Source: Cornus controversa
Taxonomy: Eukaryota; Streptophyta; Magnoliopsida; Cornales; Cornaceae
DNA length: 64,000 bases
NCBI GenBank assembly: GCA_026545225.1
Contig: CM048853.1
Location: 44,842,755-44,906,754, forward strand
Reading direction: 5' to 3'
A program made the translations under genes and the position numbers. Shown here piece after piece: positions 4,412 to 41,600 of this stretch (positions are counted from its first letter, which is position 1; every line of letters begins with the position of its first letter). The notes under the pieces were generated by a model. The model had not been told where the DNA came from. It made no database searches and was given only the letters and a program-made list of their open reading frames with translations.

Positions 4412-5579
4412 ATAAACGAAGAAAAATATGATAGCCCAACTGAAGTTCAATTCATCAGCTCCCACTAGCATCTGTGTGTAAAAGTATATGATTTCAACGA
4501 ACCTCTTTTCTGATTTTCAAATCATTTTTCACTCTAATGAGCAGTTTCAATGTAATACCCCGAAAAATTTAGATGTCTATTATTTTAAAGAAATTGAATT
4601 TCTTTATATTATTACTTTATTTTATTAATTCATGTGAAATGTCTTATTTCTATAAATTATCATTGTAATAAATTATCATTGTAGGTGAGTTGCTTTTCTT
4701 TTCTATGCATCTTATCATTTTATGTGGATTACTTAGGTTTTATAGATTCAAATCATTTCATGTAAATTGCTCTGTTTAATTATTTATTTTTATCATTTTA
4801 TGTGAATTGTTATTGATTATGTGTTATTTTATTTAAATGCTTTGGTTTGGGCTAGGGAGGAATTTGGGCTGGAATGATTGGGCTAAGGTTATGTTTAAAT
4901 TGTTGGGCCAGGGTTATAATTATATTATTATTATTTTTTTTTATTTAGTTTTAGAAAAATCAATAATAGAAGAATAATTAAGACAAAAAGGAAAAAGAAG
5001 AAATTAGGGTTTTTGCCGTTGCTTTACGCACAGAACTGAGGGAGTAAACGAAAGAGAGAAGGGAGTGACGATCGGGTGAACAAGTTGATTCGTCAAAGAG
5101 GCAAGTTTGATTCTTCTCTTCCCCTTTAAATCCGTATGCATAGTCTAAGTTTAATAATTTGGTTTATATTGAAAAATCTATTTATAATTGTATTTTATTT
5201 TGTTACTTCTTATGGATAAATTTCGTGAAAATTTATTATGCTAAATTGTATATAGGAGTATAGATATATATATGAAAGAATATATGCATATATATTTCAT
5301 GTATGTGTAAATTGTATAGGAATCTGTTTATGCATCAATTTAGGATAAGAAAAGATGTTAATTCGTAAGCATTCTCTGTTGTGATTGTCTACAAAACAAC
5401 CCTTGATCTTTAATAAAATAGATCGTGAGAAATTTGAGTTGAAATTTTTAAATTTTGTGAAGAACCCTAGAACTTGTGAATTAGGGATTTTTGATTCGGA
5501 CAATTTTTTATGGGGCTTTTTGTACCAATGGGTAGAGGGGATCAAGAGGAGAAGAACGGTACAAAAATTAGGCTGAACG

Positions 5580-5765
5580 GAGGTCGGACGAAGCCGGAAT
5601 CAACGCTGAGAAATCCCCCAGCGCGCTGCCTGCGAGCTGGGGAAGACAGCCCAGCCGGCGCGTAACCCCCACGCGCGCCGCCGGCGAGTGGGGGTGCGTC
5701 CAGCCGTGCCGGAGCTGAAAAATTATTTTCGGGCCCCACTCGGGGGGTCCCACCTCTGGGTCCAA
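5580..5765. other. GC-rich island within the solo LTR
   Basis: A stretch of about 190 bp with GCGCGCTGCC, GGCGCGTAACCCCCACGCGCGCCGCCGGCGAG and similar, in sharp contrast with AT-rich surroundings. Open frames here run on several frames and look like a by-product of composition, not genes. Confidence 0.7.
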
Positions 5766-6878
5766 TATGGGCCCATTCCGAATTGTTTTGATATTTATTT
5801 TGTATTTTTGAAATTTTTGGGAAAACTTGAAAATATGGAAAAATTATTTTTTAAAAATACTTTTATCATTCTAAAAATTCCCAAAATTTTATTTCAACTT
5901 CCTGGGAGCTTAAGGGGCTTGGGGTTTAAATTTCATATCAAAATTATTTACCATTGTTTTTAAATTAATTTTTAAAGTGTCTAAAAGTTGGATTTTTTAG
6001 CCTCTTTAATTTTAGAAAATAGTTAGAAATTTCCAAAAATTCTGAAATTTTTCCTGTAGCTCTCTGGAAGCTAAATACACTTGAGTTTAAATTTTCAATT
6101 TAAAATAATTTTTTCTTATTATTCAATTGATTTTTAAAGGGTTCAAAAGTTGGGTTTTTCACTTTCTGTAATTTTAGAAAATACTTTTATAACTCCAAAA
6201 GTTCCCAAATTTTTACTGTAACTTTTTGGAGGTTAAATAAATTTGGTTATAAATTTTCATCTTGAAATGAGTTTCTTTTGGTGTTAAGTTAATTTTTAAA
6301 GTGTCTAAAAGTAGGATTTTCACCTTCTTTTATTTTTAGAAAATATTTTAAAATTTCAGAAAATTCTAGAAAAATTTAGTTAACTTTATAGGATTAAAAT
6401 GCACCTGGGTTTTAAATTTCATGTGAAGATGAGTCTCCCTTGTGATTGTGTTGGTTGTAAACGTATGTTTCGAATTATGTTTTATTTTCTTTTTGCAAGA
6501 AAAATATTTTTTAAAATTTTCAAAAATTCTAGAAAATTTCAGAATGATTTAATAGGGTTCTCAGAAGTAGGATAGACCCAAAAACCTAGATAAAAGTTAG
6601 GTTTAGACTCCCTCGTAGAATTGAGTGCATTGAAGGTTGAGTTGGAAAATTTCTTCTATAATGGATGCTTGGGTTATTTGGTTTACTTGAATGTATTTTC
6701 CTTTAAGGATATAAATGCCCATCCAATACGTGATTATAGTTTACTTGTGAACGATTTGTCTTATGATGATAATTTCATGTTGGATAATTTGAAATACTGG
6801 TTTGTGCAAATTTAAATCATAATGCACCTTATTTATTTTATGTTTCATATTGGAATGCATCTATATGTATTTTATTTT

Positions 6879-7089: not shown

Positions 7090-8294
7090 TGACGAGTGTA
7101 GATTAATTGAATGTTTGTCGTTGCTTTTCTACACTTCGTACAAAAAATAATAAAACCTGCAAAAACTTTACTAAAAACTGTATAGTAATAAGCAGGGTCG
7201 AACCACTCTCAAGTGAGATTCTGAATGAGCTCAAATTCACACACTAATTTATGGAATGAATATTATTTTTAAAAAAAAACATTTTTTATTTTGGAATTAT
7301 AGTGAATAAATGAAACTATAATAATAAAATAAATCTCAAGGGAAGGAAATCCACCACCATGAATCCACATAAATAAATTTTCTAATATTCTTATCTAGTT
7401 TTTCCTCCAATAATCAATACACTTCACCAATCCAATTAGAACTTGGAAAGATGAAGGAAAATATGGAATAAAAAAAGAATGACTCGATTATATATGAGAG
7501 AGACATTTCTTTACTTAATCTGATACACATTGGCTAGGTAAGCAGAGGTAGGCATTCTTCGAATTACCATTATTTGGCAAACACGAAAAATCCTTCCTCT
7601 AATTTTAGAAAATAAAATCCAGAATAGAAGAGTAGAAGAATGCTCTTGGGAGGAAAAAGTAGAAAATAAAATAAAAAAACTTACTTATATTTCATCATAG
7701 TGGCTTAATCACTCATTTGAGAGGTGTGTTTACAAGAAAAAAGAAAATGAATACAAAAAAATTTATTTACAACTACACTTTATTTTTTTCTACAATTTCT
7801 AACTCTTTTCTAACTCCCTTCACCATCCCCTAAGACCCCCTATTTATAGAGTTAGAGGGGCATGGTTTAGGTGGGAAAAATTTTAAATACAAAATTCAAA
7901 ATACAAATTTGAAATACCAAATTCAAAATTCAAAATTCAAAAACAAAAATACAAAATACAAAATTTTGAATTTAAATATCTAAAATTTGATTTCCATATC
8001 TTTAATTTCAATTCTGGACTGCAGACGTGACCGTGTACAAAATATTTGGCAAAGTTTTGAACTTGAGACCTCTTGTGAAGTAGATTGCACAGAATACCAT
8101 CTCTCCTACAATTCTTCTTATGTTCATCTTTGGCTATATATATCCTTTTTAGCCTTCTTTTGCTGCTTTTCTTCTTATTTGGAAATCAACCCCTATAAAA
8201 TATAAAATGCAAAGATAAGAACCTTTAAATAAAATAAAAGATGAATTAAAAACTTATTTTAGGATATAAAATAGCAAGTTTTGTGCACTTATCA
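7090..8294 (-). repeat. 3' LTR of the Athila/Tat-type element
   Basis: 1205 bp. From about 7425 to the end it reads identical to 11485-12354. The open frame at 7987-8205 recurs unchanged at 12047-12265 and is simply LTR sequence. The stretch from about 7225 to 7420 is very different from its partner. Confidence 0.85.
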
Positions 8295-11128: not shown

Positions 11129-12354
11129 TGACGACCGTAGAATAATGGATGTTTGTCATTACTTTTCTACACTTCGTACAAAAAATAATAAAACCTGCAA
11201 AAACTTTACTAAAAACTGTATAGTAGTAAGCAGGGTCGAACCACTCTCAAGTGAGAATCAATAACAAGTCTAAACTTCAAAACCTAATTCTCTTGAGATG
11301 AAAAATGAATATTTAAAAAAATAAAATTCTGATTTTTTATTTAATAATAAAAACTAATATTAAATGTCTTAGATCAAATGATGGAAAAAATCTCAAGGAA
11401 AGAGAATTCACCACCATGGATCCATATAAATAAAGTTTTTTTTTATATTCTTATCTAGTTTTTCCTCCAATAACCAATACACTTCACCAATCCAATTAGA
11501 ACTTGGAAAGATGAAGGAAAATATGGAATAAAAAAAGAATGACTCGATTATATATGAGAGAGACATTTCTTTACTTAATCTGATACACATTGGCTAGGTA
11601 AGCAGAGGTAGGCATTCTTCGAATTACCATTATTTGGCAAACACGAAAAATCCTTCCTCTAATTTTAGAAAATAAAATCCAGAATAGAAGAGTAGAAGAA
11701 TGCTCTTGGGAGGAAAAAGTAGAAAATAAAATAAAAAAACTTACTTATATTTCATCATAGTGGCTTAATCACTCATTTGAGAGGTGTGTTTACAAGAAAA
11801 AAGAAAATGAATACAAAAAAATTTATTTACAACTACACTTTATTTTTTTCTACAATTTCTAACTCTTTTCTAACTCCCTTCACCATCCCCTAAGACCCCC
11901 TATTTATAGAGTTAGAGGGGCATGGTTTAGGTGGGAAAAATTTTAAATACAAAATTCAAAATACAAATTTGAAATACCAAATTCAAAATTCAAAATTCAA
12001 AAACAAAAATACAAAATACAAAATTTTGAATTTAAATATCTAAAATTTGATTTCCATATCTTTAATTTCAATTCTGGACTGCAGACGTGACCGTGTACAA
12101 AATATTTGGCAAAGTTTTGAACTTGAGACCTCTTGTGAAGTAGATTGCACAGAATACCATCTCTCCTACAATTCTTCTTATGTTCATCTTTGGCTATATA
12201 TATCCTTTTTAGCCTTCTTTTGCTGCTTTTCTTCTTATTTGGAAATCAACCCCTATAAAATATAAAATGCAAAGATAAGAACCTTTAAATAAAATAAAAG
12301 ATGAATTAAAAACTTATTTTAGGATATAAAATAGCAAGTTTTGTGCACTTATCA
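11129..12354 (-). repeat. 5' LTR of the Athila/Tat-type element
   Basis: 1226 bp. It abuts the primer-binding site at 11114-11126 with a two-base gap. See the partner LTR at 7090. Confidence 0.85.
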
Positions 12355-15866: not shown

Positions 15867-15950
15867 ATTCTATATAGGCTTCTACCTGAGCTCAGAAACC
15901 CAAATTCTCTTCCCACCCCATGCACCTCACAACCTGACTCTATCTTGTTG

Positions 15951-16690
15951 ATCAGTTTGCCAATCTTCTTACTCAAGTTAACCATTAATGTAATCTCACC
16001 CCCTACCTCAAAGAATTGGACTCATATTATTTGGTGTAAGCCACAAGTACCCAAACACACTTTTATTCTTTGGCTAGTTGCACTTGGAAGATTGTCCACA
16101 CTTGACCAACCATGCCACTCCAAAAAAACCACCCCTAATGCTTGCTCACTATGCCCTGTTGCAGTTAAAACCCATAATCATCAGTTTTTTCAATGCACAT
16201 TCAACTTTGTAGTTTGGAATCATTTCCAAAATATTAATTGGCAACTTTCATTATCCATTCACATCTTGGCCTGACATCATCAACTGGGTTGTTAATTCTT
16301 GGGATAATTCACTTAAATTTTTGTGGATCAGCTTGCCAATCTTCTCACTCAAGCTAACCATTGATGTAATCTCACCCCGTACCTCAAAGAATTGGACTCA
16401 TCTTATTTGGTGTAAGCCACAAGTACCCAAACACACTTTTATTCTTTGGCTAGTTGCACTTGGAAGATTGTCCATAATTGACAAACCATGCCACTCCAAA
16501 AAAACCACCCCTAATGCTTGCTCTCTATGCCTTGTTGCAGTTAAAACCCATCATTATCAGTTTTTTCAATGGACATTCAACTTCGTAGTTTGGAATCATT
16601 TCCAAAATATTAATTGGCAACTTTCATTATCCATTCACATCTTGGCCTGACATCATCAACTGGGTTGTTAATTCTTGGAATAATTCACTT
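15951..16690 (+). repeat. 376-bp tandem duplication within the LINE
   Basis: Units start ATCAGTTTGCC (15951) and ATCAGCTTGCC (16327) and stay closely similar for about 360 bp, each holding the same zf-RVT segment. The few differences suggest a duplication after insertion. Confidence 0.9.
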
Positions 16691-19357: not shown

Positions 19358-20165
19358 AATTTAATTTAGAGGCTTTCTTGTACCTATCATTTGTATCAAA
19401 TATATAAAGTATTCAATATTTTTTTTCACTTGAGAGATTTCAACAAGAATTTGTTTAGTAAAATCTAACCGCTAAGCATTAGTGTGTTTTCGAAGATAGA
19501 AATGCTTTTAAAAGAATCCTCTCTCATGACAAAAGTTGTGAAAAGGAATTTTAACCGCTGAATTATTCTTTTAGAGTCCGGCCAAGACCAAATGGTAGTC
19601 CTCCTTTTGTAGATTTTGTTGGAGATATTTTTAAAAAAAATTATAATTATTTTTTTATTTTGAGAATTATGGTAATTATTATTACCAAAATTAAGTTACG
19701 TTGGTTCTCCATAACCTTTAAAACTAACTAGCTAGTGAGAAATTAGCCAACCTATGTATTCTTTTCTCTCATTCCTTCTCTCTAGTTTTATTTCTTTATA
19801 TACTTATCTGGCTATATTTATATACATGTGTATACTATTCTCTTATTTCATGTGTTTATGGACAACAAGAAGTAGACATGGTTATATAGCCTATCTTCAA
19901 ATGTGCCTAAATGGTACAAGCATTGTGTTGTGTCTTGGAGTCTTTACTACACCCAGTGAAGAGAAAATATTGACTTTAGGATAGTGCCTAGCACTCCTTT
20001 TAACCTCAAATGCCAATTTCATTTTTTCTGATTTGATAGAATTTTTTGATTCATCAATTCATATTCATGTTCATGAATCATTCATTCTAATTGCTATTCT
20101 ATATAGAAATATATATTAATATTATTTATATTAAATTCAAATAATAAATAGATATAATACAAAGA
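19358..20165. other. Intergenic, nothing recognised
   Basis: AT-rich. An open frame at 19754-19984 has no recognisable domain and a low-complexity composition. Confidence 0.4.
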
Positions 20166-20166
20166 T

Positions 20167-20345
20167 AGGATTCGTTCAGCCCTTCATCTTTAGCGCAAGA
20201 GCGCTCGATCAATAAGCTATTACGCACTCTTTCAAGGGTGGCTGCTTTTAGGCAAACCTCCTGGTTGTCTCTGCACCCCTACCTCATTTATCACTGAACG
20301 ATCATTTAGGGGCCTTAGCTTGTGATCCGGGATAATTCCCTCTCT
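20167..20345 (-). pseudogene. Plastid 23S rRNA fragment (nuclear plastid DNA)
   Basis: Read on the minus strand it gives CACAAGCTAAGGCCCC, GGTAGGGGTGCAGAGACA, CCAGGAGGTTTGCCT, AGCAGCCACCCTTGAAAGAG, TGCGTAATAGCT and TCGAGCGCTCTTGCGC, the conserved core of chloroplast-type 23S rRNA. Scattered changes and a length of about 180 nt show a fossil insert, not a working rRNA gene. Confidence 0.85.
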
Positions 20346-20584
20346 AGTATACTACGATGTGCAATTTGATCAAAATTTTGATTTTACAAATTCGTAATAA
20401 GAAACTATCATCCCATTCAATCTAATTGGGATGTCCTGGATCTGACATATCTCTTGTACAAGGCTCTAGGTTGAGTAGCATGAGCAACTTCTAATTTATT
20501 ATGAGGCCAAACAATGAATTCAATAAGTTTGTGTCAATAATCATGTCCATTGAATAGAAACATTAAACTAAAAGCCCTGAATCA
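20346..20584. other. Segment between two plastid-derived blocks
   Basis: It probably belongs to the same insert, but I do not recognise the source. On the minus strand it reads through pieces such as ATGCTACTCAACCTAGAGCC with no gene I can name. Confidence 0.35.
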
Positions 20585-33947: not shown

Positions 33948-34798
33948 GTCAAAAGAAGGATGCTCTTTTGGAGCACTATTGGTTTTGGTCGTGGAATTAC
34001 ATCCTTGATATAAAGAGTATTTGCACATTAATTTAGTTTGGTCTTCTGTTTTATATATTTGTATGTATGATTGTGTACTTCTTGTTCTCTCCTCTGTTTT
34101 GGTCCAAAAACACTAAAAAAGAACCTTCACAGTCCTCTGATCAAAACAAGATTGTAAAAAATAAGGTAGGTAATAAACATTTGAAAAACTTAAAAATCTA
34201 AATATAAAACCCTCTTCCCCAACCTTCATAAAGCCAAAAAAAACTATTCTTTAAAAGGAAAAGAACTAATAACTTGGGAAAAGTTTATGAATTTCATGAA
34301 ATGCACTTTTGATTTGATGATATATTTTCTTGCAACCCATAACATCTAGGTTTTGTTTTATGGACTTTTTGGATTCACTTGTATAAGCTCTTCTTAGGCT
34401 TTGTAACTGTTTCCTAATTAATTTTTTCACTTTTCTTTTTTCATATTCCTCTTTACAATTTACTTTCCCACTTTTGTTTCTAAAAAAAAACTCAATGGTA
34501 GTTGTGATTGAAGAAAATAAAAATATAAAAAAAACAAAAAGAAATATGGAAATAACAGGGCATTGTTGAAAAGAAATAATAATGAGCATTACAAAGATAC
34601 ACACTATATACAAAAACCACTTTATAAAGAACAGAAAAAATAACTAAAATCTCCTCTTTAGGATCAATACATATAAACCAAAACTTATAATTTGAATTCT
34701 TCATGATCAATATATGTATACACACACATGCATATAGTTCTTTCATTTCGGAGTCGCGACGACTCGAACACTTGTTCTCACACTTGCTCTAGTCTTAA
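32845..34798. other. Intergenic
   Basis: 3' flank of the GPI-anchored gene, then AT-rich DNA. Open frames at 33428-33748 and 34266-34613 have no recognisable domain and biased composition. It contains the TA run at 33909. Confidence 0.4.
33909..33945. repeat. (TA)n microsatellite
   Basis: About 18 TA units. Confidence 0.95.
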
Positions 34799-35020
34799 TT
34801 ACCTGTTGTGTAAAGGATCAGGGCTTGAGGGTACTTGTCTATTAATGGTTGCAACAAAGCCTTCATCACTGGTAGTGTTGGTACTCTTCTCCCAAAACTG
34901 AGGCTTCTTTGTATCTTCTACCTTCTCTTCTATATATCTGGCTCCCAAAACTGAGTTTAAGGCTGAAATACTCAGCAAAATGAATAATAGACCACTCATT
35001 TGACTCCTTGAGATTATCAT
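34799..35020 (-). CDS. CLE peptide precursor, CLE27-like
   Basis: Single-exon secreted peptide hormone precursor of 73 residues, within the CLE size range. Residues 1-26 form a signal peptide (hydrophobic GLLFILLSISALNSVLG). A variable charged middle follows, then the CLE dodecapeptide RQVPSSPDPLHN at 61-72, followed by one Arg and the stop. CLE peptides act through LRR receptor kinases in meristem and vascular signalling. Most CLEs have Gly at position 6; this one has Ser. Arabidopsis CLE27 (as I recall, RIVPSCPDPLHN) also departs there, hence the comparison. A second in-frame Met at residue 8 could serve as start, still with a good signal peptide. The 5' flank is tandemly duplicated. Confidence 0.88.
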   Translation of the reverse strand: MIISRSQMSGLLFILLSISALNSVLGARYIEEKVEDTKKPQFWEKSTNTTSDEGFVATINRQVPSSPDPLHNR

Positions 35021-35088
35021 ATCACTTGCTAACTAATGTCAATGTGTTTTTGTTTCTGTGGAGAACACAATTGTGCTTGTGTGTGATA

Positions 35089-35134
<46 letters not shown>

Positions 35135-35480
35135 GGACAGATAGAGAAAGAGAGATCCTCTAAGCCAAAAGTGGAGAATAGGATTGGGTTTAGAGAGAGA
35201 GAGAGAGAATTGGGTTTTGGAGAGAGAGAGAAAGAGAGATTCTTGTGGAGTAAGATTATCGTATCACTTGCTAACTAATGTCAATGAGTTTTTGTTTCTG
35301 TGGAGAACACAATTGTGCTTGTGTGTGTTATGTGTGATATGTGTGTGTGAAAGAGAGACAGAGAGAGAGAGAGAGAGGGGGACAGAGAGAGAAAGAGAGA
35401 TCCTCTAATCCAAAAGTGGAGAATAGGACTGGGTTTAGAGAGAGAGAGAGAGAGAGAGAGATTCTTGTGGAGTAAGATTG
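35010..35480 (-). repeat. Tandem duplication of the CLE gene 5' flank, with GA/TG tracts
   Basis: Two units of about 240 bp (starting about 35010 and 35250) share AGATTATC.TATCACTTGCTAACTAATG, TTTTTGTTTCTGTGGAGAACACAATTGTG, a TG run, a GA run, CC.AAAGTGGAGAATAGGA.TGGGTTT and a second GA run. The duplicated block begins at the CLE start codon. In the outer unit the position of the ATG reads ACG. Confidence 0.9.
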
Positions 35481-36611
35481 GTTGATTAATATAAAGGAGC
35501 GACAGCTGAGTGTTTGTGTTATTGTGAAGATTCAAGGAAATGGTCAAATTTCCTAGAGAAGACAACGTAGGAGGTAGAGTTACTAGTGGCTGGACTTGGG
35601 CTTTTGAGCTCTTGTTAATTGTGTACTAAATTGGGTCCCACTCTTTTCCATGTGGTGAATTAAGTTGCTAAAAAAATTGTTCAACTTTATAATTTCCATA
35701 TTACCCTCACTTATAATAAGATAGCCTCCTTCCAATTTATGATATAGAATATAGAAAATCCATATGATAACTTGGTGATTAACCAACAGGCTTTAAGGCT
35801 CTAGCGATGGATATGAAAAAGTTATGTTTTAGAAATGTTTATTATGAATTTGTGGTCCGAGACCATGTGGTTCCAACCAGATTTCATCTTCTTATTGGTC
35901 GGAACCATGTTGTTTCTCCTTATTGGTCTGCATGGCTTCTTCTCATTGGTCTGAATCACATGGCCCCGACCACATAAAATATTCTCATAACAATTCACTC
36001 TCTCACACACACACATACATATACTATACATATAGTGAGATATATATTTACACTTAAAATGAGTAAGTAAACAATAATTTAGGGTATTTCAGAACTTCCA
36101 AATCATGCAAGGATGATGATTGATGACAATGTGTTATGTCATCTAACCCAACTAGTCCACTTAAGCTTTCATACTCTTTGAATTTTCAATTGATATAACT
36201 TAATGTTTGTCTCCCCAAAAACCTCAATTTCGGGATCTATTGTTTGACTCTACCTTAGCTTGTGGGCTGCTGTTTCTGCTTTTTTTTTTTCATTTCTCTT
36301 CTTCTAAAGTCTAAAACCCTAAAAGTCCATGCTAATGCAATTTTCTAGGTTCAGTAGTACTTTCTACTCTTTCTATATTGTATTTTTACATTTAACTATG
36401 TTTTTGTTTCACAAACTAGGGTTTTTGCCTTTTGAAGTAACAACACACCTTTTGTAAAGGCATCTTTAGTTTTAGTTTTGGTGGGTTTAGATTTATTGTT
36501 AATGTAATTTACTGTGCTCTGTTTCTTCTCTTGTATTAGCTTATGACAGCTTCTATAGGTGGAGTGTTTCAATTTATTATGTTAATGTTGGGATTTGTCT
36601 TTGTTTGCAAT

Positions 36612-36657
<46 letters not shown>

Positions 36658-37970
36658 CATTATGCTTCAAATTAATTACTACATATTTGGTAATTCGTTT
36701 TAGCATTAGATTAATTAGGGTTTTTCCACACAGTTGCATACGTGTGCAATGTTGCTACAATGAACCATCTTTTTCTTCACGGATTAACTAGTTCATAGAA
36801 AATTGGTTTCATTTTTCCCATTTCTAACCATTAGAAAATTAATTGGAAGTCCCTACTTGATCACTTGCAGCAACTTCTCCATGAAAAGTATTTATTAATT
36901 TAATTATTCTAAGATTTTGGTTTAGGGTTGGACCAGGCAAGGGATTTTGGTTTACATTTGCTACCATTCTAAAACATAGAAACAACATTTTCATTTTATA
37001 ATACTATAGTTCACCCGTATGAAATGGGTGGTTTTCATTTCAAAAAAAAAATTGAAGGCTTACACGAATCGGGATACCATATCCGTTGGGATATTGTATA
37101 CTTTCTTGCTATTTAGATACTACTGCATTCACATTCATTCATCACAAAGTTGAAAACAAATATTTGCTAAAACTATGTATTTGTTCATGCACACACTCGC
37201 AAAATTTCACGCTTTTATTTCGAAATTTTATCCTTAAATTGGTGTAATTTAAACTATTTAAAGTATAAACAGGGTTGTTTTGATAAGTTGGTAATGTGAC
37301 ATTTTGTTTTCATAAGTTGGTAATTAGGAGTTCGCAGGAAACCTTAGAATCATAAACAATTCCTTTTCATTTTATTTCGAGTAATGACATGATAGTGAGC
37401 TCCGATATTCTTTTTTTCTTCTTTTTTTTCAAATGTAAGATACAAAAGTAATCAGCTTAGTTCCGCAGCTACATAGTTAGTCAATCCACTCCCTACGATT
37501 GAACATGATGATTAAGTTGAAAGAAGTTTTAAGCATGATTATGCAAACAAGTCCACACTGCCTTCAACATGCTAATCATCACACAAGTAGAAGTTAGGCC
37601 CCATTGAAAACAAGAAGCCCCATCTTTTGACTCAGGTGCCACTCTGGACGTTCAACTTGTTTCAAAGCAAATTTAAAGAATGCTATTTAGAACTCCATAC
37701 TATCAAAAAAAAGTTACTTCCCAATATACCTAAGATAGAGAGAACTACAACCAAAGATCTCATATTCATCAAATATAAAAAGTTATCAGATCAACCATCA
37801 TGTTAATCATTTCCACGGAAATGTGGTGATTTCTTTTTGTTTTCATTTCCTTGAAAAAGAAGCTATTAATACGAATTAACTAGAAACAGAAATTTATAAA
37901 ATCCGAAAAAAAAACAAAAACAAAACCTGTAATCGACTCTTTCAAGTAAAATTGATTCATTTGCCTAGTA
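35481..37970. other. Intergenic
   Basis: No gene recognised. At 35850-35965 short imperfect repeats of TTCTCATTGGTC.G / ACCA.GT..T occur. The CT run at 36613-36646 is a microsatellite. Confidence 0.4.
36613..36646. repeat. (CT)n microsatellite
   Basis: About 17 CT units before AGGGTTTGG. Confidence 0.95.
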
Positions 37971-37972
37971 AA

Positions 37973-38168
37973 ATATTTCCTCAACAATTCTAAGGTTCGA
38001 CTCCCCTAGAGTACCAACAATTCCTTAGAGACCACGCCCACACTGCAAACCGAGCTTTAACCGACCCGTGTGGAGTGTCGGTTAAAGCTCGGTTTGCAGT
38101 GTGGGCGTGGTCTCTAAGGAATTGTTTGCACTTTAGGGGAGTCGAACCTTATAATTGTTGAGGAAATA
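37973..38168. mobile_element. Fold-back element: long near-perfect hairpin containing pol III B-box motifs
   Basis: A perfect 47-bp inverted repeat (38018-38064 with 38078-38124) surrounds a 13-nt loop. The pairing extends outward, imperfectly, to about 37973 and 38168, giving arms near 90 nt. Each arm holds GGTTCGACTCC (37994-38004, and inverted at 38138-38148), identical to a tRNA B-box consensus. The end motif ATATTTCCTCAAC occurs a third time at 38178-38189. Could be an inverted SINE pair, a fold-back MITE or a young hairpin small-RNA locus. Confidence 0.75.
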
Positions 38169-38620
38169 TTATATATATATTTCCTCAACACTATAGAAGA
38201 CATAACAGTTTTCATATGATGCCCAAACAAGACCTAATGAATGACTCCTAAATTCATAATAGTACTGAAGACAGGATCCCAATTTATGGGTGCCAAATGA
38301 CAGAAATGATGACAAAATATATTTTCCTTTCTATTCTTTTATTGAATTTTTTTTTGGACACAATAACATGTCATGCATCAGATTATTCTTGAAATAAAAC
38401 TTCATTTGAGGATCAAGCAACAAAAGAAACTATTCTTACTGTCTTGTGCAAGCCTATGCATGATTATTCTTGAACAAAAAGCGCAATGTTATCCTCCGCG
38501 ATCAGTGCTTCCAGTTGGAAGGATGAAACCAGCTCCTCAGATGTCTTTTCATTTTGTTCATCCCAACTGAAGTCATTAATTACAACTAACCCATGTATGT
38601 GATCTTTGCTATCACTACTG

Positions 38621-41600
38621 TTAAGCACTTTTTATTCTACCCGGTGTGAACAGTAGATACCTTCTTATTGCAAGTATTAGGACCCAAGTTGTCGCGCTGA
38701 TTTTCTCCTTTATCATCAGAAGTAACGCGGAGCTTAGAACAGTCTTCAAGATCTGAGCTTTCAGACCCTTAAAAAATCCTAGCACCCCTTCTTTACTCCA
38801 AATAGCATAAAAAACGCCAGACAGCGTTTTGCGGGACTTTCTCCTAGCTTTCTTGGCCCCATCATAATCCGAGTCTGCAGCTTGAATCATAACCTTACAC
38901 CTGCCATCGGATGGCATGGTTAGATATACAGAGCCGCTAGATGAAAAAAAGAAGGGGTGAGAATGCAATGAACCTGATAGCCGGATATGTCAAAATGGTA
39001 GCAATGCTCTTCGAAACTGCACCTATAACGAAAGCTGAAAAGGCAGAAAGGGATTCTTGGGGTGAGTCCTTCGTTATTTTATTCTGCTTTCTCTTCAAGA
39101 GTCTTTGTTTCAGCTGATCAAAAACTGTATACTGAATGGCAGGGTTAGAAGTCAAAAGAAGAGAGATGCCAAGGCCATCAAATGCTTCACTCCAACTGCC
39201 TTCTGTAAGGGTTTGCCATAGCCCTTTCGATTTCCCGAACGTGCTTGTCTGCATCCTTGAGGAAGCTGTATCCAGGGGCTACACAATAATATCAGATAGT
39301 CAAACATTAAATTGAAGAAATGAAATAAATAAGCTCCATTTGGTTCATACATGATACAGAATGAATAAAGAACACTTGAATGTTGCTGCAACTTTTCCAA
39401 CCCATAATAGTTGATCAAGAGGTCAATGAAAAAAATATTTTAAGACCTTAAATCAACAGTTGCAAATCCTGGTTGTTACAAATGGTCACATCTCTTTTCT
39501 CCGCCTTTAGAGCAATCCAATGGAGTATCAGTTGAAACTTGAATTGTAACTCATGACCAAATAGCAGCATAAATTTAAGTTTTGCCACACTAAATGGCCG
39601 CTTTATATTCCAATTCAAAATACCCAGATTCTATAATTCAATTACAAGGATCCTATTTTGTTTTGATATCCCTGCTAAATTCAACAACAAACTAATTCTC
39701 ACTTACTCTGCATCATTTTTTTCTCCATTTTCATGAAATCAACAAATAGCATCAAGAGACAAGCTGCACAACCACACATAGAAGCAGGACTTGCATCTTG
39801 CACGATAAACGGAAAACCAGGGTTCTACATTTCAACATGAAGGATCTCGTTTCCATAAAACTAGCAATTCAAATTTCAAGCTCAAACAACTTGGTATTTT
39901 AGATTTGAAACCAATGAATAACATTTGTGTTATAGTCTTATAGATTGTGAATCAAGGCATAATTCTGAAGCACAATCACTGTGATTTTTCAAAGGTAGCT
40001 TACCTGAGTCACAATTGCATTGCAAGCCCCAGCAGCAGCAGCAAGAAGCAAGTTTGCTTTAGTTCCAATGGATTTGGAACCACTCCTTTCCAGATATATT
40101 CTTTTGAAATAACTATAGCCATAGAAGTAGACAAACTGTGAAATGAAGGACTGCAAGTTCTTCGTCCCCAGGCCCTGGTACAGTGAAAGAACCTGACGAG
40201 TAGATATTGCTTCCAAAAAAACATCTGATAGGTTCCTGCATAAGCAAGACAAAGTGAAATCAGAAACACTATAAATCAAGTCTAAGAGTCTTATGTTGAC
40301 TTAATAAATATATTCCCCACACAAGACGCTTGGTATGAGTTTATAGGTATAACCTATGTTAACTGGGCTCTCCTATTACCCCCAATGTACACGTGTTGAC
40401 ACGACATGACATGAGCATGTGCATGGAATATTTGTCCGACACATATACCCAAAATGGACACCTAGATCCTCTAATTGTGATGATGGAATAAGAAGAAAAG
40501 CTCGAATTTGATAGCCAATAAGACTTTCCTACTTTTGAGACAGGTGAAAAATCTCTTTTTTCTCACAATATTGCATTAAAAAAATAATAATTCATTAGAT
40601 TACACTTTTACGTAGCATATTATTTTTTTAAGTGTGCAAGACATTTCCATGCACCTTTTTTTAAGTATGCAAGACATTTCCATGCACTTATATAAGTTTT
40701 GGACACATTTCATCCAGTCCCCGTATCGAAAAAGTTGTGACCCAAGGAGGTTTGACACTTGACACATAACCGCAACCAATACAAGTGCCCAAGTCCAGGT
40801 TAGGTTGCAACCCTTAAAGAGATCATTGACCATTGAATGACTTAGATCGCAATGATGAGGAACCAAATTGAGGGGCTCCGAATAATATCTTCTTCAAAAC
40901 TCTCTAAATCCCATTTGCAACCCTTTCTTCAATGAAGAAAAATGTATAGATACACAAGTCGCAAAAACATCCTGACCTTGGGGTTGCCAACAAAGTAAAA
41001 CCTAAAGCTGTTTCACGAACATCAAAGCCCAAAAAATTAAAAATCTTCCTTACAATTATTTCTTAGCTTTGTTTTACAAGAATATATTAAACCAATTCTT
41101 AATATCAATTGGTACTCGCCCTCAATTACACTAGTTTCCAATTGTGCATTCATAATGCAAAAAAGAACCAAAAAAAGAAATAGATAAACTCAAACGTAAT
41201 TGGCTAATGTAATTGACATCATTAAGCAACAAGTATCTAATGCAGTACCCATGAACAGTAGCTTTTATGGTAATCTGCTGATCATGCTCATGCATCCCAG
41301 TCAGTTCTTTATGACATCATGGAAATCAGAAACAAATGTTGATGATTATAGAAACTCAATCCATGGAAGTCAGAGTCATTCTGAAGAATCCCATGCACCT
41401 TGAGGTGCTCTCACAGACAAGCTTACACTAGCAAAGTAACAACTGAGCAGACCACCACCCACCCATCTACAGGGGAATATTCTAATTTATGGCCACGCAA
41501 TAAGTGCAGTGTCATAGTGGAGATAATGAGGTAAGTGCACGGACTCATTATCATGTAACGTAACATAGAGGCAATGTTGTAGTTTCCATTACCTACTGCG

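Follow-up and report, generated by a model that had tools for sequence, protein, structure and literature searches.

A near-perfect hairpin in Cornus controversa probably formed by inverted duplication of a resident SINE copy

Mu killer of maize is a rearranged inverted TE of DNA-transposon origin with experimentally demonstrated activity. The hairpin described here, from Cornus controversa, likewise appears to be a rearranged inverted TE copy with the potential to give rise to hairpin RNA against its own family; in contrast to Mu killer, its source is a SINE and it is known from sequence alone. A second set of counterparts is formed by young MIRNA and hairpin-siRNA loci of Arabidopsis (PMC1790633) and of Arabidopsis and rice (PMC3237417), which, in the portions of these papers drawn on here, also combine an adjacent inverted duplicate and a near-perfect stem with single-arm homologues elsewhere, whereas their source is a protein gene rather than a SINE and the present locus is so far a reading of genomic DNA. 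The small RNAs made by inverted duplications in Arabidopsis vary between uniform miRNAs and mixed siRNAs, and perfect duplexes are said to be poor substrates for DCL1 (both from the excerpted text of PMC1790633). Some TE-derived inverted-duplication hairpins become miRNA or siRNA loci, according to the sections consulted of PMC3086885 and PMC3237417. Hairpins of the osa-MIR1879 type, which derive from short non-autonomous retrotransposons, resemble the present locus in that their arms are an inverted short retroelement, but two juxtaposed TEs are involved there, as compared to one copy duplicated together with its flank here (PMC3086885, in part). With tRNA-derived plant SINEs, as characterized in the available part of PMC9033089, the family behind the arms has an A box, a B box, a poly(A) tail, and candidate TSDs in common; the copy at this locus differs in being without the A-box end and the 3′ end and in being doubled back. 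The preliminary description knew of no named element with this layout, which nevertheless fits the published inverted-duplication route to young miRNA and siRNA hairpins, as far as the excerpts of PMC1790633, PMC3086885, and PMC3237417 describe it. Judged by its arms, the locus is a TE-derived inverted-duplication hairpin, perhaps a proto-MIRNA or a hairpin-siRNA locus, and does not represent a new class of element. In the literature on inverted or dimeric SINEs, the SINE papers among the matches listed look mammalian.

The window (the whole 64,000-nt stretch of DNA that was analysed) contains the hairpin at the place given in the preliminary description, with arms of 97 nt each that are 95% complementary and an 11-nt loop between them (Table 1). 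Base-by-base comparison detected 50 uninterrupted pairs beside the loop (38016-38065), close to the 47 bp and 13-nt loop initially reported, and a mismatch or wobble at five outer positions (38015, 38013, 38009, 37990, and 37971). The folding calculation that had been proposed as a check yielded −167.5 kcal/mol for the hairpin, as compared to −54.0 ± 4.3 for 200 shuffles (z = −26), none of which (0/200) folded to as low an energy; the other strand folded to −170.9. The hairpin is the longest among 36 inverted pairs in the 64 kb (minimum length 40, ungapped) and lies far beyond chance expectation. Elsewhere in the window, the tile 5544-5784 folds to −108.9, and no inverted repeat of at least 25 nt was found in 5300-6000.

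Table 1. Features of the hairpin locus and its neighbourhood, in window coordinates
Feature	Position	Strand	Basis or remark
Left arm of hairpin	37969..38065	+	Inverted-repeat search, base-by-base pairing
Left 14-nt direct repeat, ATATTTCCTCAACA	37973..37986	+	Exact repeat of 38177-38190; read as left TSD
Truncated SINE copy, sense	37989..38075	+	88.5% to family consensus; begins shortly upstream of the B box and takes in most of the loop
B-box motif GGTTCGACTCC, left arm	37994..38004	+	Motif search
11-nt loop	38066..38076	.	The SINE sequence of the left copy extends through 38066-38075
Right arm of hairpin	38077..38173	-	Inverted-repeat search, base-by-base pairing
Probable inverted duplicate of the truncated SINE copy	38077..38151	-	88.0% to consensus
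B-box motif GGTTCGACTCC, right arm	38138..38148	-	Motif search
Likely inverted copy of left flank/TSD, within right arm	38156..38169	-	Repeat search
Right 14-nt direct repeat, ATATTTCCTCAACA	38177..38190	+	Repeat search; read as right TSD
AATAAA, between carrier stop codon and hairpin	38338..38343	-	Motif
Open stretch with mitochondrial-carrier match, read as last exon of the gene	38621..38989	-	PF00153

When the arms were searched against the genome from which the window comes (771.7 Mb in 61 contigs; 40 of 43 candidates scored), 73 matches were obtained, two of them the locus itself and 71 in 39 other places with 75-97% identity to the arms. At 32 of these places there were two coincident matches, one from each arm and on opposite strands, and at the other seven a single match. 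All 39 were fetched with flanks of about 600 to 1500 nt, and the same SINE was present in every one (39/39). A full copy is about 215 bp long and consists of an A box, a B box, a body, and then a poly(A) tail; the consensus A box, TGGCTCTAGTGG, has one mismatch to TRGYNNARNNGG, and the consensus B box, GGTTCGACTCC, lies 55 nt from it, start to start. Clear TSD candidates of 11-20 nt, scored with no shuffle control, accompany the SINE at six of ten loci examined (L004, L009, L010, L014, L015, and L017), while those at L003, L005, L006, and L007 are short or weak. Searching with a full copy returned 565 first-look candidates, and all of the scored ones (40/40) match; the genome contains 18 exact occurrences of the 19-mer AGTGCAAACAATTCCTTAG, one of them in the right arm. 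Single copies differ from the majority consensus by 10-40%, a range in which a few edge columns are included. As judged from these copies, the SINE family is real and old and of modest copy number. Its promoter boxes, poly(A) tail, TSDs, and dispersed copies support assignment of the source of the arms to a tRNA-type SINE, in agreement with the SINE or tRNA-like origin proposed at the outset; related copies, whose absence had been named as counterevidence when a search for single-arm copies was suggested, are present in 39 other places. A literature search with six stretches of the family sequence matched no named family, and the family may well already be named in print.

Two loci show further arrangements of the SINE. 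At L006 (G000:C8), same-strand copies at 32008484-32008718 and 32009293-32009520, about 810 nt apart and with a common TSD candidate (TGACTTTG), sit in a larger direct duplication of ∼400-nt pieces (91% and 84%), the 84% piece including the SINE. At L041 (G000:C9:52494950-52496250), one SINE is accompanied by two nearby 3′-half copies in the same orientation, a cluster which is possibly a 3′-end array.

Both arms of the hairpin are without the A-box head and without the 3′ end and tail of the SINE, the left copy amounting to about two fifths of the element, and SINE homology is lost at nearly the same 5′ position in both. Eight differences from the family majority are common to the two arms (positions 114, 116, 125, 127, 128, 129, 134, and 145 in consensus numbering), as are two more at the extreme 5′ edge, which may be flank. 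Not all eight are private to this copy, since some of these states are found in other copies (129T in 11/39 and 127A in 7/39). Between the SINE parts of the arms, four of 77 positions differ (consensus 75, 94, 98, and 100), each arm holding two of these as private changes with respect to the family majority; the nearest of 41 other copies is 11-12 differences from the arms over 64-77 positions. The arms also agree at every one of 17 nt of flank beyond the SINE (37972-37988). The eight shared differences and the shared flank point to one donor for both arms, as expected of an inverted duplication. Given these shared changes, the shared flank, and the closer similarity of the arms to each other than to any other copy, it is probable that one resident SINE copy was inverted-duplicated in place rather than that two insertions occurred.

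The preliminary description had instead suggested two inverted SINE copies. Separate copies inserted adjacently in opposite orientation would be consistent with the resemblance of each arm alone to a SINE copy with a B box, and the literature describes plant miRNA hairpins that arose from inverted TE copies lying side by side (e.g., osa-MIR1879, as presented in the part of PMC3086885 consulted). Such an origin is nevertheless very improbable, being contradicted by the eight shared differences and the 17 nt of common flank as well as by the nearly coincident 5′ loss of homology and the distance between the arms, 4/77 as compared to 11/64 or more to any of the 41 copies. We consider it more improbable still that the hairpin is an inverted-duplication artefact of sequencing or assembly (a snap-back read), an option raised initially as a possible refutation. 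A short loop and long near-identical arms are, as a matter of general knowledge, typical of such artefacts, yet the arms carry five separate differences, with two of the four in the SINE part private to each arm, and the locus lies inside a 57-Mb contig.

The dimer pattern AACAATTCCTTA-N(72-102)-TAAGGAATTGTT, composed of exact 12-mers with that one spacing range, fits one place in 772 Mb, the locus in the window, and its reversed control had no genome match. At none of the 39 other places (0/39) do the fetched flanks contain the SINE in a second orientation. Across 79 loci and the window, both orientations occur together only in L001, L002, and the window, and all three are the same place. Inverted repeats between 14-nt direct repeats are also what a mobile hairpin element in its own right, of the MITE or Foldback type, would present; however, the arms here are SINE sequence lacking the A-box and tail ends, and the single genome place fitting the dimer pattern, together with the lack of bi-oriented copies at the other 39 in the fetched flanks, makes an element of this kind highly improbable. 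As a MITE or Foldback family it would be represented by several complete copies, and one place was found within the spacing range and flanks searched. The hairpin thus looks like a unique rearrangement, not a member of a mobile hairpin family.

The direct repeats, which were absent from the preliminary description, provide an indication of how the rearrangement may have arisen. The 14-nt sequence ATATTTCCTCAACA is present three times at the hairpin, twice in direct orientation and once inverted between these (Table 1), and 2 nt separate the end of the left copy from the start of SINE homology at 37989. The outer pair is likely the TSD formed when the SINE was inserted, and the inverted sequence between them a copy made by the duplication. 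In the sequence of events that we infer, the starting point would be a diverged, 5′-truncated tRNA-type SINE copy between 14-nt TSDs. A broken or stalled strand would then have folded back inside the SINE at about 38075 and copied the SINE and the left TSD in reverse, and the new end would have been joined to the right TSD at an AT-rich TATATAT (38170-38176), with loss of the SINE 3′ end and tail. Thereafter, the arms would have drifted in their outer halves, while the inner 50 bp were possibly kept identical by repeated hairpin-templated correction. Fold-back at 38075 and joining at TATATAT would account for all parts of the locus and for loss of the SINE 3′ end. A counterpoint is that no change separates the three copies of the 14-nt repeat, despite some ten changes in each SINE arm; for an old SINE insertion this is somewhat unexpected. 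The right ATATTTCCTCAACA could instead be the product of a second fold-back, an event that would need a chance stop close to the SINE boundary. In the genome, the 553-bp left flank matches no place but its own, with no paralogous empty site on that side.

Plant substitution rates are 0.65-1.3 × 10−8 per site per year. Applied to the five differences in 97 positions between the arms, these rates would place the duplication at roughly 2-4 million years ago, or earlier in a slow-evolving species. The eight changes shared by the arms are all inner (consensus 114-145), while the four private ones are all outer (75-100). With the 12 changes placed according to the per-site variability of the family, this split was reached in 0.2% of trials (0.4% in either direction), a comparison made post hoc. 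The split may reflect repeated hairpin-templated correction of the inner stem; in yeast, template switching between inverted repeats homogenises arms (PMC8604942, in the part consulted). Because the arms may have been homogenised, the perfect 47-bp stem of the preliminary description may not simply measure age. The designation "very young" made there holds in a relative sense only, given arms that differ at 5/97 and an inner perfection that perhaps results from homogenisation (a post hoc reading). Should the inner-shared and outer-private split hold in other loci, it would provide a measure of template-switch homogenisation in plant palindromes.

Turning to transcription, the motif GGTTCGANNCC occurs twice in the 64-kb window, once per arm, as compared to 0.08 occurrences expected, and the SINE copy of the window keeps its B box and is without an A box. 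A scan for an A box 25-75 nt upstream of either B box detected nothing better than two mismatches; two such candidates lie upstream of the left B box and one upstream of the right, near the background of 0.7 per 50 nt. Reading on from the B box, TTTT is first encountered at 38209 on the plus strand; on the minus strand it is first encountered at 37973-37970, where the left arm has its outer edge. Pol III transcription, considered possible in the preliminary description, is doubtful because the A box of the SINE is missing, and independent transcription of the hairpin by pol III appears unlikely. On the near-background A-box scan, the locus was rejected as a pol III unit. ARAGORN (bacterial settings) found no tRNA gene in the window.

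In the neighbouring gene, three open stretches within 38624-40300 match PF00153 above its cut-off, and we take the sequence of the gene to resemble a peroxisomal adenine nucleotide carrier. Its stop codon (38623-38621, minus strand) is reached about 430 nt before the hairpin. Since an AATAAA lies between the two, at 38343-38338, the hairpin is probably just outside the normal transcript of the carrier gene.

A transcript through the hairpin would plausibly form a long double-stranded RNA stem suited as a substrate for Dicer-like enzymes, and small RNAs from it could in principle silence the SINE family in trans. Expression as a hairpin small-RNA locus (proto-MIRNA or hairpin-siRNA) acting on that family would be an added function, compatible with an origin by inverted duplication. 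Consistent with such a function are the long near-perfect stem, the position of the first TTTT beyond the hairpin or at its very edge, and published loci of like layout that yield siRNAs or young miRNAs (PMC1790633, from the excerpt consulted). Furthermore, when up to three mismatches are allowed, 40/41 sampled SINE copies match at least one 21-nt word of the left arm and 41/41 at least one of the right arm, counts that come with no chance control. Against it stand the missing A box, the AATAAA on the side of the neighbouring gene, beyond which read-through would be needed, the age and modest copy number of the SINE family, and the failure of every Rfam family to reach its gathering score there; on balance, expression as a small-RNA locus is unlikely. 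The best miRNA match in Rfam was mir-3198, at 49.9 bits as compared to a gathering score of 91, and with all matches in the hairpin below threshold, those to miRNAs are read as resemblance of the stem only, and a known ncRNA was rejected as an identification. A more elaborate proposal is that of a single-locus SINE-derived silencing gene, in which read-through or pol III transcription would give 21-24-nt siRNAs that direct methylation or cleavage of the other SINE copies in trans, while template correction would keep the inner stem perfect and delay its decay; we regard this as quite improbable. The locus offers a clear snapshot of a retroelement copy turning into a long hairpin, in which the donor family, the likely TSDs, the junction, and subsequent drift can be read. 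If small RNAs are made, it would be an early-stage MIRNA or hairpin-siRNA locus that arose from a SINE and whose target family is known beforehand; if they are not, it would indicate that such hairpins arise and decay silently.

Several other features of the window were observed. On the minus strand, 20117-20392 has an Rfam match to bacterial-type LSU rRNA (92.6 bits) and is probably an insert of organelle rDNA in the nuclear genome, and 34269-34643 has a weak match, below curated cut-offs, to membrane proteins of the NEMP and tetraspanin types. Close direct duplications of about 250-300 nt are found at 1718-2287 and 15945-16620 (98% and 95% identical, respectively), and a duplicated block of ∼240 nt at 35011-35485 has AG/TG microsatellites in each copy. 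Finally, direct repeat pieces at about 7108-8008 and 11146-12068, which are 96-100% identical, scattered across ∼900 nt, and about 4.04-4.06 kb apart, look like the LTR pair of a recent retrotransposon.
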